Source of the DNA: Permianibacter aggregans
GTDB taxonomy: Bacteria; Pseudomonadota; Gammaproteobacteria; Enterobacterales; Permianibacteraceae
Direction: 5' to 3'
Assembly (NCBI RefSeq): GCF_009756665.1
Contig: NZ_CP037953.1
Location: 2,418,001 to 2,482,000, forward strand
DNA: 64,000 bases
The notes below the pieces were generated by a model, which saw only the letters and a list, made by a program, of their open reading frames with translations, was not told the origin of the DNA and searched no databases. Of this stretch, positions 30,271 to 36,022 are shown one piece after another. The position numbers and the translations under genes were made by a program. Within the stretch, counting starts at the first letter, position 1. Each line of letters opens with the position of its first letter.

Positions 30271-30295
30271 ATTTGCTCCATGAATTTTTTTCTTT

Positions 30296-30399
30296 TAACG
30301 CTCAGCTAACCGGCCGCTGATTGATTTTGTGTAAGAATGCGCGAAGCGCCGCACAAAAGCAAACACTGGCCAGTGGTCAGGCTGACCCGATTGTTAAGC
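30296..30399 (-). repeat. attC site 9 (most distal)
   Basis: Starts with TAACGCTC and ends with GTTAAGC on the plus strand, the complements of the GTT/AAC core sites. The inner imperfect palindrome (TTTTGTGTAAGAATGCGC with GCGCCGCACAAAAG) is shared with all other sites. It belongs to the lipoprotein cassette on its right. Confidence 0.88.
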
Positions 30400-30819
30400 C
30401 TATTTTGATTTTTTAAAATAAGGGGAGGCATGATCAGTTAAACGATAGGAGACGCCTAAGTCTTGGCTTAGACGTGTGCCAGAAATATCTTTAAGTTGCA
30501 CATACCACACACGTGTAACATCGTCTATATACTCGGCGTGCTGAAGGTTAGCAAAACTTATATTTTTATTTTCTAAATTTGTATTGAGGCGTTCCAATAC
30601 CTCAGCTTCATAAACGTACCAAAAATGGACGGGAATACAGGCATCAGATTTGCAGTTTGTAGAAGGATAAAGCCCCGTATATTTCACGCTCTTTACTTTC
30701 ACTACTAACAAAATTTCATCGTGTGAAGGATTGAGTTTTGATAAAAGCTCAGAATCTGGTTCTGTGTATGTCGTTGCACATGCTGAAAGTGCTAGGCATA
30801 AGAATAAAATGAACCGCAT
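30400..30819 (-). CDS. Cassette lipoprotein of unknown function
   Basis: A 139-residue protein starting MRFILFLCLALSACATTYTE: a lipoprotein signal with lipobox LSAC, so Cys15 should be acylated. The mature part has two cysteines (NCKSDAC) and a beta-rich stretch (VHFWYVYEAEVLERL) but no family I recognise. The open frame extends 62 codons upstream through the neighbouring attC; that part is not coding. Stop lies next to its attC, as usual for integron cassettes. Confidence 0.7.
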   Translation of the reverse strand: MRFILFLCLALSACATTYTEPDSELLSKLNPSHDEILLVVKVKSVKYTGLYPSTNCKSDACIPVHFWYVYEAEVLERLNTNLENKNISFANLQHAEYIDDVTRVWYVQLKDISGTRLSQDLGVSYRLTDHASPYFKKSK

Positions 30820-30827
30820 TTGTAGCT

Positions 30828-30940
30828 TAACGCTTGGGGTAGCCGGCCGCTGGCCGGGGGTTGATTTTGTGCGAATATGCGCGCAGCGCCGCACAAAAGC
30901 AAGCACGGTTTGGTGGTCGCGGCTGACCGCTTTGTTACAA
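30828..30940 (-). repeat. attC site 8
   Basis: Bounded by TTAACGCTTGGG and GTTACAA on the plus strand. It contains GTAGCCGGCCGCTGGCCGG and the conserved centre ATGCGCGCAGCGCCGCACAAAAG. It belongs to the secreted-protein cassette on its right, whose stop codon lies inside it. Confidence 0.9.
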
Positions 30941-31366
30941 ACATTTTTTTGAAAACTCATAAAAGCCAACTTCCCTTGGTGCACTTGCGGCTTTGGTAAG
31001 TTCAAAGGACTCCACTAATACTGGGTGGTCTTCTGCTTTAGCTAAAATAGATAACCCAACTATTAAGGGCCCTGTGCGCTCAGCATAGATAAACGACTGC
31101 GTGAATGAGCCCCGTGACACCGTGATTGACGTGATGCCATTTACATTTTTTACGTTTTCTGCGGCAAATGGAAAGACGAAATCACAGTTGTGATTCGAGC
31201 CAAGTGAGTAGGAAAATAAACCTCTGGAGTCATTCTCAACTAGCAGAACGGAGCCATATGTGGCTCCGAAGTTGCTGAAACCCTCCCACACATTTTCTGT
31301 ACTAGCCGCGAGTGCCGAGTTAGCAAGTAGCGCCGCTATGAATGCGAGGTGGTTTTTTGTATTCAT
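30935..31366 (-). CDS. Cassette-encoded secreted protein of unknown function
   Basis: A 143-residue protein with a clear signal peptide (1-20, ending ALAAS) and a beta-rich mature part with two cysteines (NCDFVF and the C-terminal KKCL), which could form a disulphide. No family is recognised. The stop codon overlaps the attC core, a common cassette feature. Start ATG is 10 bases inside the attC of the next cassette. Confidence 0.65.
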   Translation of the reverse strand: MNTKNHLAFIAALLANSALAASTENVWEGFSNFGATYGSVLLVENDSRGLFSYSLGSNHNCDFVFPFAAENVKNVNGITSITVSRGSFTQSFIYAERTGPLIVGLSILAKAEDHPVLVESFELTKAASAPREVGFYEFSKKCL

Positions 31367-31376
31367 TTAATGTTTA

Positions 31377-31488
31377 TAACGCCAAGCTAATTGGCAACCT
31401 GAAAAGTGATTGCGTTGTGCGAATATGCGCGAAGCGCCGCACAAAAGCAAGCACGGTTTGGCGGTCCCGGCTGACCTGGTTGTTACAT
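31377..31488 (-). repeat. attC site 7
   Basis: Bounded by TAACGCCAAGC and GTTACAT on the plus strand. Its left part (TAATTGGCAACCTGAAAAG) is more diverged from the other sites, while the centre ATATGCGCGAAGCGCCGCAC is conserved. It belongs to the RraB-like cassette. Confidence 0.85.
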
Positions 31489-31821
31489 TTAATTTGATAC
31501 ATCACAACCCCAACCATCGTAATGAACCGAATATTCCTCGCTAATTGCATTGAGCAGAATCGATGTTTTTGTAATGTTATGAAAGTCAGTGCAGTCGATA
31601 CTTGTGCATTTTAAAAAATAGCCTGAATGATGCTTATCAATTATGAGATTAGAAAAATCCATTAAAAGCAGCAATTCAGAAAGAGAGATCAATTTTTGTT
31701 CATCATCAGATGTAAATGTGTGATCAATTAATCTAACTACCTGATCGTCATCGCCTTTCTCAGCTAACGACCTCAGCGTTGATTTGTCGAGTTCAATTTG
31801 TTGTTTGTATTGTTCTTTCAT
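31489..31821 (-). CDS. Cassette-encoded RraB-like protein
   Basis: A 110-residue protein resembling the ribonuclease E inhibitor RraB. The match is in DDDQVVRLIDHTFTSDDE, like the RraB start after its acidic helix, and in the end YSVHYDGWGCDV, which corresponds to the conserved YDGWG of RraB. RraB binds RNase E and alters mRNA decay. If this cassette protein keeps that activity it would be a mobile modulator of RNA turnover; family assignment is from motif memory, and binding is unproven. The ATG overlaps the neighbouring attC edge. Confidence 0.6.
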   Translation of the reverse strand: MKEQYKQQIELDKSTLRSLAEKGDDDQVVRLIDHTFTSDDEQKLISLSELLLLMDFSNLIIDKHHSGYFLKCTSIDCTDFHNITKTSILLNAISEEYSVHYDGWGCDVSN

Positions 31822-31827
31822 TAAATT

Positions 31828-31938
31828 TAACGCCTAGGTAGCCGGCCGCCAAGCCGGGGTTGATTTTGTGCGAATATGCGCGTAGCGCCGCACAAAAGCA
31901 AGCACTGGCCAGTGGTCAGGCTGACCCGCTTGTTAGGG
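31828..31938 (-). repeat. attC site 6
   Basis: Bounded by TAACGCCTAGG and GTTAGGG on the plus strand, with GTAGCCGGCCGCC and the central GCGCGTAGCGCCGCACAAAAG. It belongs to the cassette of the 122-residue exported protein on its right. Confidence 0.9.
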
Positions 31939-32024
31939 AGACTTTGAGTCCGAGTGCTTTGTTGGTTGGGTTAAGTTTTTAGGTCTTCTAATAGTTTGGC
32001 TAGCACTCTTCAAGTGCGCCGTAA

Positions 32025-32393
32025 CTATTGGCTGAGCATTAATAATGCTGAGTCACATTTTTCCTTCAGAGAGTCAATGTTTTCTTTTTCTAGATTTTCT
32101 ATTATTTCGTTAATTTGTGGTTGATATATTTCTGTTAGATCACTTTCAGAGAGGTCATCTCCGAGCTCACTTTTTAAAAGCTCTAGACCTTCCATGATGT
32201 AGGTAATATTGTTGTTGGCCCATCTTGCGTAAGTACTTTGATACTCTTGTCCAAATTTCTCGCTACATTTTTCAATGATTGGCTCAAGTAGGAGGGAGGA
32301 CTCAAAAAACTGTTTCTTAGCTTCTGTTTCAGTATCGGCTAAAGCCTCAGAGCTAATTAAGACTGCCACTAAAATCATTAAGTGCTTTTTCAT
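32025..32393 (-). CDS. Cassette-encoded small exported helical protein
   Basis: A 122-residue protein with a signal peptide (MKKHLMILVAVLISSEALA) and a mature part that is acidic and predicted helical, with two cysteines (EKCSEKF and EKCDSALL) that may pair. No family recognised. The frame upstream of this ATG runs through an attC and is not coding. Between its stop and its attC lie about 85 non-coding bases. Confidence 0.65.
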   Translation of the reverse strand: MKKHLMILVAVLISSEALADTETEAKKQFFESSLLLEPIIEKCSEKFGQEYQSTYARWANNNITYIMEGLELLKSELGDDLSESDLTEIYQPQINEIIENLEKENIDSLKEKCDSALLMLSQ

Positions 32394-32402
32394 TTTTATA
32401 CC

Positions 32403-32510
32403 TAACGCCTGGGTAGCCGGCCGCTGGTCGGTGATTGATTTTGTGCGAATATGCGCGAAGCGCCGCACAAAAGCAAGCACTGGCCAGTGGTCAGGCTGAG
32501 AACGTTAACT
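32403..32510 (-). repeat. attC site 5
   Basis: Bounded by TAACGCCTGGG and GTTAACT on the plus strand. The end reads GGCTGAGAACGTTAACT where the other sites have GGCTGACC-N-GTT, a local change next to the core. It belongs to the small membrane-protein cassette on its right. Confidence 0.88.
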
Positions 32511-32795
32511 GGCGGAGCCATCCTCTTCTCGAGCTGGGTACGCTCCGGCAACTGCCATTCCTGCAAAGTAAGCTATTACCAAACCGAAGATAACAAGAGC
32601 CACGGAATATACTGCTGAGCTCACCGGTATGAGAAAGTTAATTGCACCAAAAGTTAGTAGCGAAGCAAAAAGGGTTTTGAAAATAGATTTGTTATTCTTC
32701 TGTGCTTCTCTAGTGATAACGGGAAAAACCATGAGCATCAAGAATGTTGACTTAAAGATGCTCGCTACTATGAACATATAAATTTCGTGAACCAT
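32505..32795 (-). CDS. Cassette-encoded small membrane protein
   Basis: A 96-residue protein starting MVHEIYMFIVASIFKSTF with about three hydrophobic segments (6-28, 43-60 and 65-88) and a polar acidic tail (AREEDGSAS). No family recognised. Its stop overlaps the attC core. Small hydrophobic proteins are frequent in chromosomal integrons. Confidence 0.6.
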   Translation of the reverse strand: MVHEIYMFIVASIFKSTFLMLMVFPVITREAQKNNKSIFKTLFASLLTFGAINFLIPVSSAVYSVALVIFGLVIAYFAGMAVAGAYPAREEDGSAS

Positions 32796-32809
32796 GTTTT
32801 GATGTGGCC

Positions 32810-32921
32810 TAACGCCGGGGTAGCCGGCCGCTGGCTGGTGGTTGATTTTGTGTGAGAATGCGCGAAGCGCCACGCAAAAGCAAGCACTGGCCGGCGGTCG
32901 GGCTGACCCAATTGTTAGGGC
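32810..32921 (-). repeat. attC site 4
   Basis: Bounded by TAACGCCGGGG and GTTAGGGC on the plus strand. Its sequence is identical to attC site 1, and the ORF-poor cassette attached to it is also identical. Confidence 0.92.
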
Positions 32922-33216
32922 AGTGGCTTGAAAGCCGCATGGCCGGTTAATGGTATTTTTTGATTTAAGTTTGTTACTTTTGGGTTTCGGGCAATGCGGT
33001 TGAGGTTTGCTCTGAACCGGACTAGATATACTCTGCGAGATTGCTGCAATGCATGCAGTAAACGCATCGTACCAGCACCCAGCTAACTTTGATGATCGGT
33101 TTGGATTGAACGAACTATTGAAGAAGCGGGATGTATCAAAATTGAGAAAGTGCCGAAGAAAAAATATTCCGTATTACCGCCTTGGCACCGTCAGTTCCTT
33201 TTAAATTTCGTGGCCC
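32922..33216 (-). other. ORF-poor cassette, copy 1 of 3
   Basis: About 295 bases with no convincing protein gene. The only cassette-like frame is a 50-codon ORF (ATG at 33067, stop in the attC core) without a good ribosome site; an AAAAGGAA box near the cassette start precedes only a four-codon frame. Together with its attC it is identical to the copy next to attI. Possible roles are a small RNA, a promoter cassette, or a short peptide; none is shown. Confidence 0.7.
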
Positions 33217-33327
33217 TAACGCCTGGGTAGCCGGCCGCTGGCCGGTGATTGATTTTGTGTGAGAATGCGCGAAGCGCCACACAAAAGCAAGCACTGGCCA
33301 GTGGTCAGGCTGACCCAGTTGTTATGA
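33217..33327 (-). repeat. attC site 3
   Basis: Bounded by TAACGCCTGGG and GTTATGA on the plus strand, with the typical GCCGGCCGCTGGCCGG and central GCGCGAAGCGCCACACAAAAG. It belongs to the TonB-like cassette on its right, whose stop lies in the core. Confidence 0.9.
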
Positions 33328-33657
33328 GCTTTTATCAAGTTCAAATACAAGCACATACTCACCACAACGGTTTGTTTCTGTGTGTGAGTTAAACTTCCAG
33401 CTTTCCGCTGCGGTAATTGCCGCTAAATCAAAAACACCTTCTGGTTTTGACTCAACAACACTTACTTTGTGCGCGTGACCATTTGGGGCCACGAGTATCC
33501 TAATTTTAACCCAGCCTTCTTGCCCGCAAGCTTTTGCAGGGTACTGAGGTGGGGTTGAGGCCAGAATGCTTAGGTTTTTATTCGTGCATTCATCCGCTGC
33601 CGACAATGCAGAAAAGAGGGCTATCAAAGCTGCAACAAATGGTGAGCTGGCTTTCAA
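33322..33657 (-). CDS. Cassette-encoded periplasmic TonB C-terminal-domain protein
   Basis: A 111-residue exported protein: signal peptide (about 1-20, ending LSAA) and one TonB C-terminal-like domain with PPQYPAKACGQEGWVKIRI, a central AITAAESWKF and the final YVLVFEL, as in the betaalphabeta TonB fold. There is no membrane anchor helix or Pro-rich linker, so it is not a complete energy transducer. Three cysteines (DECTN, KACGQ, RCGEY) may form a disulphide. Function as a cassette protein is unknown. Confidence 0.72.
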   Translation of the reverse strand: MKASSPFVAALIALFSALSAADECTNKNLSILASTPPQYPAKACGQEGWVKIRILVAPNGHAHKVSVVESKPEGVFDLAAITAAESWKFNSHTETNRCGEYVLVFELDKSS

Positions 33658-33670
33658 TTATTTTGGCTCA

Positions 33671-33782
33671 TAACGCTTGGGGTAGCCGGCCGCTGGCCGG
33701 GGATTGATTTTGTGTGAGAATGCGCGAAGCGCCACACAAAAGCAAGCACTGGCCGGCGGTCGGGCTGACCCACTTGTTAGGG
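33671..33782 (-). repeat. attC site 2
   Basis: Bounded by TAACGCTTGGGG and GTTAGGG on the plus strand. It belongs to copy 2 of the ORF-poor cassette and differs from sites 1 and 4 at several positions, including the left arm. Confidence 0.9.
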
Positions 33783-34078
33783 CTGTGCCTTGAAAGCCGC
33801 ATGGCCGGTTAATGGTATTTTTAGATTTAAGTTTGTTACTTTTGGGTTTCGGGCAATGCGGTTGAGGTTTGCTCTGAACCGGACTAGATATACTCTGCGA
33901 GATTGCTGCAATGCATGCAGTAAACGCATCGTACCAGCACCCAGCTAACTTTGATGATCGGTTTGGATTGAACAAGCTATTGAAGAAGCGGGATGTATCA
34001 AAATTGAGAAAGTGCCGAAGAAAAAATATTCCGTATTACCGCCTTGGCACCGTCAGTTCCTTTTAAATTTCGTGGCCC
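33783..34078 (-). other. ORF-poor cassette, copy 2 of 3
   Basis: About 296 bases, the same as copies 1 and 3 except for a few substitutions (near 33783-33788, 33822, and GAACAAGC in place of GAACGAAC near 33971). The 50-codon frame is kept but has three amino-acid changes, so there is no sign of protein-level constraint. Confidence 0.7.
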
Positions 34079-34189
34079 TAACGCCGGGGTAGCCGGCCGC
34101 TGGCTGGTGGTTGATTTTGTGTGAGAATGCGCGAAGCGCCACGCAAAAGCAAGCACTGGCCGGCGGTCGGGCTGACCCAATTGTTAGGG
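34079..34189 (-). repeat. attC site 1 (nearest attI)
   Basis: Bounded by TAACGCCGGGG and GTTAGGG on the plus strand, identical to site 4. It belongs to the first cassette of the array. Confidence 0.92.
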
Positions 34190-34485
34190 CAGTGGCTTGA
34201 AAGCCGCATGGCCGGTTAATGGTATTTTTTGATTTAAGTTTGTTACTTTTGGGTTTCGGGCAATGCGGTTGAGGTTTGCTCTGAACCGGACTAGATATAC
34301 TCTGCGAGATTGCTGCAATGCATGCAGTAAACGCATCGTACCAGCACCCAGCTAACTTTGATGATCGGTTTGGATTGAACGAACTATTGAAGAAGCGGGA
34401 TGTATCAAAATTGAGAAAGTGCCGAAGAAAAAATATTCCGTATTACCGCCTTGGCACCGTCAGTTCCTTTTAAATTTCGTGGCCC
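34190..34485 (-). other. ORF-poor cassette, copy 3 of 3, first position
   Basis: This copy sits directly at attI, the place where incoming cassettes are inserted, so it is the most recent arrival. It and its attC match copy 1 and its attC over 407 bases. No protein gene is convincing. Confidence 0.72.
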
Positions 34486-34594
34486 TAACAGTTTATTAGA
34501 CGGACGGCAGGATAATATATATTGTTATCTAGACGTCTGTATAATATTTGTATAAACGTCCCAGAAGAACTCTGAGCTGAATGAAGGAAGCGCC
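34483..34594. promoter_or_regulatory. attI region with divergent intI/cassette promoters
   Basis: The array junction is CCCTAAC (34484-34489 region), the complement of the GTTAGGG core shared by attC ends. From there to the integrase ATG lie about 105 very AT-rich bases. TGTATAAT (about 34536-34543) is a good extended -10 for the integrase. A leftward cassette promoter is likely in the same stretch (TATTAT on the minus strand), but its -35 is weak. GAAGGAAG precedes the integrase ATG. I see no full LexA box. Confidence 0.65.
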
Positions 34595-36022
34595 ATGGAG
34601 CGGCAGGTTAGTGAAGCGGAAAAACGCTTTTGGGACAAATATTTAGCGCAGTTGGACCGTTATGGTGTGCGGGCGCATCAGCGCCGTCACTATGTCAAGG
34701 TCAGTGAGCACTACCTATCACTAAATACAGACAAGAAATTGCGCCTGCATGGCGCCGATGACATTAATTCCTATTTTCACTTCCTTGCTGGATTGCGACT
34801 ACTTTCGTGGCAGTTTAAGCAACGTATCTGGGCTATCCGCCATTTGTTCAAATTGACCAATCCGCAATTGGAGCGTGGTTTTGACTGGCGTGCCTGGATC
34901 GCACAGGCTGAAGCATTGCCCAAGGAGCACCCTACTGTCGCACGGGAGAATGACCCGATTGCTGACTCGTTGATACCTGAGCCGGTTGTTTCGCATTTGG
35001 CACCCGAGTTGATCAGGCAGGAGATAGAGAAACTCAAGCTGGTACTGAGAGCAGGCGATTATGCAATTCGTACAGAGCAGTCGTACATTCTTTGGCTGCG
35101 CAAATTTTTCCGGTTCTGCGACAAAGTTGGTGAGTCTATCGGTGCGGATGATGTCTCACGCTACCTGACATTTTTGGCGGTACGGCAGCATGTATCGAGC
35201 AGCACTCAGGCATTGGTGTTGAACGCTATCGTTTATTACTGGCGTCACATTCTCAAGCGCGACCCAGAGCATCTGCAGTTTTCGCGCAGTAATCGTCCAC
35301 AGCGTTTGCCGGTAGTGTTGTCGCAAGATGAGGTAATGAGGCTGCTGACGCAATTGCGCGGCGTGAATCATTTGCTGGGTAGTTTGCTTTACGGAACTGG
35401 TATGCGGTTGATGGAGGCTATCCGATTACGGGTTCAGGATGTCGATTTTGCTTACCAGCAAATCACGGTTCGCGATGGAAAAGGCAAGAAAGATCGAGTG
35501 GTTCCGTTGCCCCAAAGTTTGGTGCCGAGGTTGCAACAGCAATTGGCGCAGACTAAAGCGCTACACGAGCAGGATCTGCGCAATGGTGGTGGCGATGTGT
35601 TTTTGCCCAGCGCCTTGGCGCGAAAACACCCCAAAGCTGCATACGACTGGCGATGGCAGTACATATTCCCGAGCGCAGCACTGAGTACTGATCCACGCAG
35701 CAAACATGTCCGGCGGCATCACCTGCATGAAACGGGTTTACAGCGTGCTATCAAAAACGCGAGCACGGCTGCACAGATCTCCAAACGTGTCAGTCCGCAT
35801 ACGTTGCGACATTGCTTTGCTACGCATTTACTGGAGGCCGGCCATGACATTCGAACCGTGCAGGAGTTGTTGGGGCACGCTAACGTGGCAACCACGATGA
35901 TTTACACGCATGTGCTGAATAAAGGCGGTCGTGGGGTGGCGAGTCCCTTGGATCGGTTGCTGGGGGCAAAACACGTCAAAGAAGCGGCGGCGGTTTACGG
36001 TTTAAGCGCAGCATTTACCTAA
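34595..36022 (+). CDS. intI: Integron integrase with duplicated N-terminal core-binding domain
   Basis: A 475-residue tyrosine recombinase. The IntI-specific insert is present (FLPSALARKHPKAAYDWRW and HVRRHHLHETGLQRAI), so it is a true integron integrase. Catalytic residues are Arg271, His402, Arg405, His at about 428 and Tyr437. Common IntI proteins have about 320-340 residues; this one has about 135 more at the N-terminus. Residues 54-82 (ADDINSYFHFLA ... AIRHL) repeat 184-213 (ADDVSRYLTFLA ... AIVYY) at an offset of 130, meaning two SAM-like core-binding domains in tandem. It is divergent from the cassettes, and its stop overlaps the convergent dtd stop by 4 nt. Confidence 0.93.
   Translation: MERQVSEAEKRFWDKYLAQLDRYGVRAHQRRHYVKVSEHYLSLNTDKKLRLHGADDINSYFHFLAGLRLLSWQFKQRIWAIRHLFKLTNPQLERGFDWRAWIAQAEALPKEHPTVARENDPIADSLIPEPVVSHLAPELIRQEIEKLKLVLRAGDYAIRTEQSYILWLRKFFRFCDKVGESIGADDVSRYLTFLAVRQHVSSSTQALVLNAIVYYWRHILKRDPEHLQFSRSNRPQRLPVVLSQDEVMRLLTQLRGVNHLLGSLLYGTGMRLMEAIRLRVQDVDFAYQQITVRDGKGKKDRVVPLPQSLVPRLQQQLAQTKALHEQDLRNGGGDVFLPSALARKHPKAAYDWRWQYIFPSAALSTDPRSKHVRRHHLHETGLQRAIKNASTAAQISKRVSPHTLRHCFATHLLEAGHDIRTVQELLGHANVATTMIYTHVLNKGGRGVASPLDRLLGAKHVKEAAAVYGLSAAFT

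Follow-up and report, generated by a model that had tools for sequence, protein, structure and literature searches.

Integron mechanism has been worked out on integrases with a single core-binding (CB) domain, in which the CB-catalytic part binds attC through its folded bottom strand and attI at its core, and carries out the cutting and joining. An extra N-terminal domain before the CB and catalytic domains is found in arm-binding integrases of the lambda Int type, where it is not a CB domain and has a small beta-sheet fold.

RitA of the RIT elements is described as having two consecutive CB domains ahead of its catalytic domain, an arrangement that, in the parts of the survey available to us, is given as absent in all other tyrosine recombinases, with the integron-like group classed among the simple ones (Smyshlyaev 2021, PMC8138268). 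Long integron integrases (IntI) are known from Nemergut 2008 (PMC2426708): in the available parts of that paper, one group within the mainly deltaproteobacterial clade 15 is set apart by a shared “gene fusion” that makes its proteins about 120 amino acids longer, with no identity given for the added part. Proteins exceeding IntI1 in size by 20% or more were counted there as pseudogenes, although they may be functional. The portions of PMC3108266 and PMC3414803 available to us hold nothing on the extension, and we found no publication within the open-access literature that names it a second CB domain.

We analyzed a window of 64,000 nucleotides from Permianibacter aggregans (the whole stretch of DNA presented, on contig NZ_CP037953.1), in which an intI gene encodes such an extended integrase. 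The protein resembles ordinary IntI (TIGR02249; IntI4, 2a3v) in its CB and catalytic domains, its insert and the adjoining attC array, and differs from them by carrying, ahead of the one CB domain that they have, another domain of CB-like type followed by a linker. It shares the RitA arrangement, but RitA sits in a trio with RitB and RitC, whereas the window intI has no ritB or ritC neighbours. As in lambda Int-type integrases, the extra domain precedes the CB and catalytic domains, and we propose an analogous role; the domain itself is not of the lambda Int arm type, being all helical in the model with CB domains as its first fold matches. What appears to be new, by sequence comparison, is the identification of the extra length of IntI as a second CB-like domain, the length itself having been known since 2008 (PMC2426708).

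The integron and its integrase gene

The intI open reading frame spans positions 34595-36022 on the plus strand of the window and encodes 475 residues from an ATG start. Using NCBIfam, we obtained a TIGR02249 score of 429.3 bits over residues 144-455 (curated cut-off of 265 bits), and Pfam returned one Phage_int_SAM_4 match (PF13495, residues 145-223) and one Phage_integrase match (PF00589, residues 241-441, positions 35315-35917). Residues R271, K296, K299, H402, R405, H428 and Y437, which we take to be the catalytic residues of tyrosine recombinases, are invariant across a 17-row integrase alignment. IntI4 (2a3v) is the top sequence match among solved structures, from residue 152 onward, and aligns with a single one-residue gap to residues 317-360 (positions 35543-35674), which we take, in name and in approximate limits, to be the IntI-specific insert. 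The window protein is thus a bona fide integron integrase with insert and catalytic residues, as the first-pass annotation had stated from the letters alone. The second ATG of the gene is codon 248 (GTG and TTG codons exist in frame), so an internal ATG start cannot yield an integrase of normal length.

Upstream of intI lies a cassette array with nine attC-type sites of 107-116 bp at positions 30293-34189, all on the minus strand and reading away from intI. We folded each site as single-stranded DNA on the plus strand of the window, i.e. the bottom strand of the array, and obtained folding z-scores between -2.1 and -9.9, with five of the nine below -6. Counted from the intI end, these are the sites at 34076-34189 (z -8.3), 33668-33782 (-7.5), 33214-33327 (-9.9), 32807-32920 (-7.1) and 32400-32510 (-6.6), followed by those at 31825-31938 (-3.0), 31374-31488 (-3.3), 30825-30940 (-2.3) and 30293-30399 (-2.1, the weakest). 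A crossover-like CCCTAAC motif stands at the end of the array (34483-34489), about 105 bases before intI and where attI is expected, and the region at 34483-34594 (minus strand), which is also the intI leader, is likely attI. From position 34484, 17 of 20 bases match the nearest relative, a score of 19 that is not significant alone (shuffle maximum of 20). Scans for accessory-site repeats in the putative attI, and for promoters and terminators near intI, gave nothing above shuffles.

One cassette is present three times, at 32817-33116, 33679-33978 and 34086-34385, the copies being 97-100% identical over 300 bases and two of them identical; the first, attI-proximal cassette body (34190-34489, minus strand) is a copy of it. 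These near-identical copies suggest recent integron activity, with cassette duplication at the attI end. Another cassette (33322-33657, minus strand) encodes a 111-amino acid protein with a TonB C-terminal domain (PF03544). Downstream of intI we found a D-Tyr-tRNA deacylase gene on the opposite strand, a 216-amino acid ORF that matches no Pfam family, and a histidine kinase; the end of the convergent deacylase gene overlaps the 3′ end of intI by 4 bases (36019-36022). In this setting, the window protein is the integrase of a resident integron.

The domain in front of the core-binding domain

The first-pass annotation had proposed, from an internal repeat at an offset of 130 residues, that residues 1-135 hold a second SAM-like core-binding domain, and had suggested that PF13495 or PF02899 might be found twice. 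This last expectation failed: PF13495 matches once, and residues 1-135 match no Pfam or NCBIfam family up to an E-value of 10. The repeat itself proved real, weak as a pairwise match and strong by profiles. GADDIN begins at residue 53 and GADDVS at residue 183 (offset 130), AIRHL and AIVYY lie 131 residues apart, and the bare pairwise alignment is modest, with a local BLOSUM62 score of 44 over 13 residues that is reached by about 1% of 2000 shuffles.

We then built a profile of the N-terminal domain (residues 5-112, positions 34607-34930) from 26 extended integrases, the window protein included (locus L062 was excluded from a first alignment). Using hhalign, this profile matched the CB domains of the same 26 proteins with a probability of 95.3% (score 47.6, 80 columns) and those of 28 non-extended IntI with 95.2%. 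As controls, 100 column shuffles reached at most 22.3 (own CB) and 18.4 (non-extended CB), the reversed profile gave 0.4% and 1.8%, and the catalytic domain gave 0.3%. L007-L036 include 28 non-extended IntI frames, and in 24 of them the corresponding HMM matched the CB domain (E-values 6e-8 to 7e-3); in one relative (G557:C37), it matched both domains of the same protein (3e-39 and 2e-6).

Structure prediction with AlphaFold, using an alignment of 16 sequences from which the partial locus L103 was excluded, gave the N-terminal domain a pLDDT of 89, with residues 1-126 modelled as all helical and helices at residues 7-22, 27-43, 54-65 and 71-88, followed by two further ones at 90-95 and 98-107. 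In a full-length model from 17 sequences (pLDDT 83, pTM 0.55), the helices of the canonical CB domain (residues 137-223, positions 35003-35263) fall at 137-153, 158-175, 184-196 and 202-219, so that the first four helices of the N-terminal domain are in register with them at an offset of 130-131. The two domains are joined by a linker at residues 113-136 (positions 34931-35002), of which residues 114-131 have a pLDDT below 50.

For fold searches, we submitted the predicted domain to VIA and Foldseek. The first VIA match was the CB domain of IntI4 (2a3v_C; Z 11.0, rmsd 3.2 over 108 residues), with which two structures that we take to be Xer proteins, 5hxy and 4a8e, were tied; helical bundles can reach a VIA Z of up to 13 by chance. 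Tyrosine recombinases or integrases made up 31 of the first 32 rows (Z 6.5-11), the remaining one being phage SroF bound to DNA, and the rows below scored at most 5.3. The first 39 PDB matches in Foldseek were likewise tyrosine recombinases, with weak E-values (best 0.065). In both searches, entries were classed by their titles or by the protein known under the entry.

That residues 1-135 could be an unrelated domain fused by chance, or the product of a mis-called start, would fit the lack of any Pfam or NCBIfam match and the p-value of about 0.01 for the pairwise repeat taken alone. Against this, profiles, HMM, structure prediction and fold search all agree on a CB-like domain, and the N-terminal domain shares one frame with the IntI part in 26 of the 30 loci fetched that carry it (two of the 26, L043 and L062, have a partial domain, and the other four of the 30 loci are broken or cut). 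We consider this explanation refuted computationally and give it hardly any weight. By prediction and profiles, then, the N-terminal domain is a diverged CB-like domain with the four-helix fold, as first proposed, and the architecture is almost certainly that of an IntI with a second, diverged CB-like domain before the ordinary one.

We compared the two domains by aligning them within the window protein and across the extended integrases. In the window protein, 15 of 77 aligned residues are identical. The CB residues invariant in the 26-row alignment are R152, T160, E161, Y164, W167, L194, V200, T204, Q205 and L209, of which only two, Y164 and L194, have an identical residue opposite them in the N-terminal domain (Y33 and L64), while T160, E161, W167, T204 and Q205 are among those without counterpart. 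The N-terminal domain has a consensus of its own (W13, W32, Y33, E38, Y40, W72, Q73, Q76 and L84, the window protein having H at 32). Further along, W98 is invariant and H112 nearly so, and an H-x-T-x-A-R stretch precedes the linker.

The N-terminal domain is constrained yet evolves more freely than the rest of the protein, as judged from dN/dS, identities and distance correlations. In three pairs among the close relatives L049-L051, dN/dS was 0.16-0.24 for the N-terminal domain, 0.06-0.09 for the CB domain and 0.05-0.07 for the catalytic domain; four other computable pairs gave 0.13-0.35 for the N-terminal domain and two more were saturated. Over 23 extended proteins, leaving out L043, L062 and L065, mean identity was 33% (N-terminal), 45% (CB) and 64% (catalytic). 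In this set, distances for the N-terminal domain correlated weakly with those for the catalytic domain (Spearman 0.26, with 43 of 2000 permutations as high) and slightly better with those for the CB domain (0.36, 12 of 2000), compared to 0.67 between CB and catalytic domains.

The HMM of the N-terminal domain also matched the CB domain of five frames that we read as Xer-like (L085, L086, L089, L092 and L096) at 17.5-22.5 bits. The domain may have arisen by duplication of the protein’s own CB domain or by fusion of another Xer-type one. On two 458-amino acid frames of pHG1, taken for RitA by their size and gene order, the same HMM scored -3.0 (L202) or found nothing (L196); an HMM of the IntI CB domain fails equally there (-1.9 and -2.2), so this test of kinship with RitA is insensitive.

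Distribution and phylogeny of the extended form

In a sample of 369 gammaproteobacterial genomes, we detected the N-terminal domain in 43 and an IntI above cut-off in 138; an IntI match with an E-value of 1e-60 or better was seen in 144 genomes, which include 40 of the 43. Among the 150 IntI matches listed, 33 lie in frames of at least 425 amino acids, 30 of them in genomes with a match to the N-terminal domain. Long IntI frames also occur in genomes without such a match (G198, G241 and G313), so a long frame is no proof of the domain. Within the window’s own order, 61 of 119 genomes have an IntI above cut-off and, among the IntI frames listed, three exceed 425 amino acids (in G000, G005 and G058), which makes the extended form rare there; the N-terminal domain was confirmed in G000 and G005. 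The third frame, a 500-amino acid IntI (G058:C94, L190), has a front part below 60 bits with the HMM of the N-terminal domain and perhaps carries another extension. Genome G000 also has two 348-amino acid frames that score equally with PF13495 and lie 8.7 kb from each other (C1:1419698-1419949 and C1:1428449-1428700), possibly tied to a mobile element.

Among the best 80 of 581 relatives, chosen by likeness to the whole protein and hence no estimate of prevalence, 16 encode the N-terminal domain, scoring above 40 bits, in the same frame as the catalytic part. Named holders include Allochromatium palmeri and Thiocapsa imhoffii, as well as metagenome bins, which may be mis-sorted, of Desulfobulbus, Desulfobacterales, Thiotrichales and Verrucomicrobiales. 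Two extended IntI from a Deltaproteobacterium (L111) and a Clostridiales bin (L154) have a more diverged N-terminal domain (61 and 46 bits); they lie apart from the main extended branch and may represent a type of their own. In phages, the N-terminal domain of an extended integrase (L042) used as a query had no match in 50,697 records. For plasmids, we considered the best 5000 of 72,556 records, among which a single one spans 80% or more of the extended L042 query: pTs485 of ‘Candidatus Thiodictyon syntrophicum’, where the protein is annotated “integron integrase”.

To look for arrays beside extended intI genes, we inspected 12 wider loci by eye for direct repeats with AAC...GTTAG-type ends. 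Five (L178, L179, L180, L181 and L185) have attC-like repeats on the 5′ side of intI and seven have no attC-like family on that side, perhaps because cassettes are few or the contig ends there. We relied on direct repeats instead of our attC scanner, two versions of which recovered 0 and 7 of the nine window sites and a third of which was noisy; on 13 named extended loci, the scanner gave 1.69 sites per locus versus 1.27 in shuffles (threshold 11).

For the phylogeny, we built a quick tree on the CB and catalytic domains of 144 IntI and 3 Xer-type rows, labelling 40 rows as extended and 96 as not; 11 of the 147 rows were left unlabelled (the outgroup, rows cut by contig ends, and L106, whose N-terminal domain is apparently in another frame). 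The extended label clusters, needing two changes on this tree versus a mean of about 35 when shuffled. When the tree is rooted, the Xer-type outgroup joins on the extended side via a very long branch. In a second tree of 76 rows, 38 of them extended and excluding the long branches L062 and L118 as well as 61 short rows, holding the 36 core extended rows as one clade gave a slightly better likelihood (AU p 0.59). With the outgroup on so long a branch and a one-clade tree that is not rejected, either order of gain and loss is compatible with these trees. It is unlikely, in our estimate, that integrases with two CB domains are the older form and that the IntI with one CB domain seen in Vibrio and in class 1 integrons descend from it by loss of the front domain; if so, this domain would be a second DNA-reading head shed by the clinically known integrases.

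The extension marks a branch of IntI whose holders include Gammaproteobacteria, Thermodesulfobacteriota and a Verrucomicrobiales bin, besides others. It is no peculiarity of the window protein, given the 43 genomes of the sample, the branch on the tree and the length noted in 2008. Set side by side by description, the clade 15 long IntI, as far as the available parts of PMC2426708 go, and the extended branch are very likely the same or sister groups; in the extended branch, the added part is CB-like and occurs in Gammaproteobacteria and others as well.

Possible roles of the N-terminal domain and their meaning

The explanation we prefer, at a probability of roughly 0.45, is that the window protein is an IntI of the extended branch with a tethered accessory DNA-binding arm. 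Its ordinary CB-catalytic part would bind the attC bottom strand and the attI core as other IntI do. The N-terminal domain, tethered by some 20 flexible linker residues, would act as an arm in contact with DNA next to the core site, either attI sequence on its flank or the hairpin beyond the core boxes, and would steady the synapse or sharpen site choice, much like the arm-binding domains of phage integrases. The first-pass annotation had likewise raised that a second arm could change the grip on attC hairpins or attI. DNA binding by the domain is plausible given its modelled fold, and its accessory role in contact with DNA is put forward tentatively because of the fold, the tether and the front position. 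Weighing against this role are the missing invariant CB residues, the lower average charge, the faster evolution of the domain with its weak tracking of the catalytic domain, the lack of accessory-site repeats in the putative attI, the seven relative loci with no attC-like family 5′ of intI, the scanner counts little above shuffles, and the weak Foldseek E-values together with the chance level of Z for helical bundles.

In Cre- and Xer-like synapses, contacts also form between CB domains, and the N-terminal domain might instead be a protein-protein module, its fold kept but re-tuned for contact between IntI subunits or recruitment of a host factor. This second possibility, the main rival, which we rate as somewhat doubtful but deserving of attention, is favoured by the replacement of most invariant CB residues with a different conserved set and by a lower mean net charge over the 26 proteins (+1.8, range -4 to +9, versus +6.3 for the CB domain); yet the fold is of a DNA-binding type and, in the window protein, the N-terminal domain has a net charge of +7, equal to that of its CB domain. 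A third possibility is that an ancient tandem fusion left the domain behind as a decaying remnant or spacer that hardly affects recombination. Fast divergence, weak co-variation with the catalytic domain and copies in broken frames (L047, L056, L064 and L068) would fit such decay, as would the scoring of intI proteins at least 20% larger as pseudogenes in the available parts of Nemergut 2008 (PMC2426708); but dN/dS well below 1, near-invariant W and Q positions and retention of the domain across a branch spanning several phyla make this an improbable account.

Returning to the accessory arm, if the N-terminal domain binds DNA, extended integrases would provide a natural test of the choice that IntI make between attC and attI, and possibly an enzyme more selective for its sites. 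A branch of IntI with a second CB-like domain shows an arrangement that the available parts of the 2021 survey (PMC8138268) give only for RitA. Our analysis also suggests that sound intI genes can be lost when pseudogenes are called by length. The role of a part of these integrases that was earlier known only as unexplained length can now be tested.
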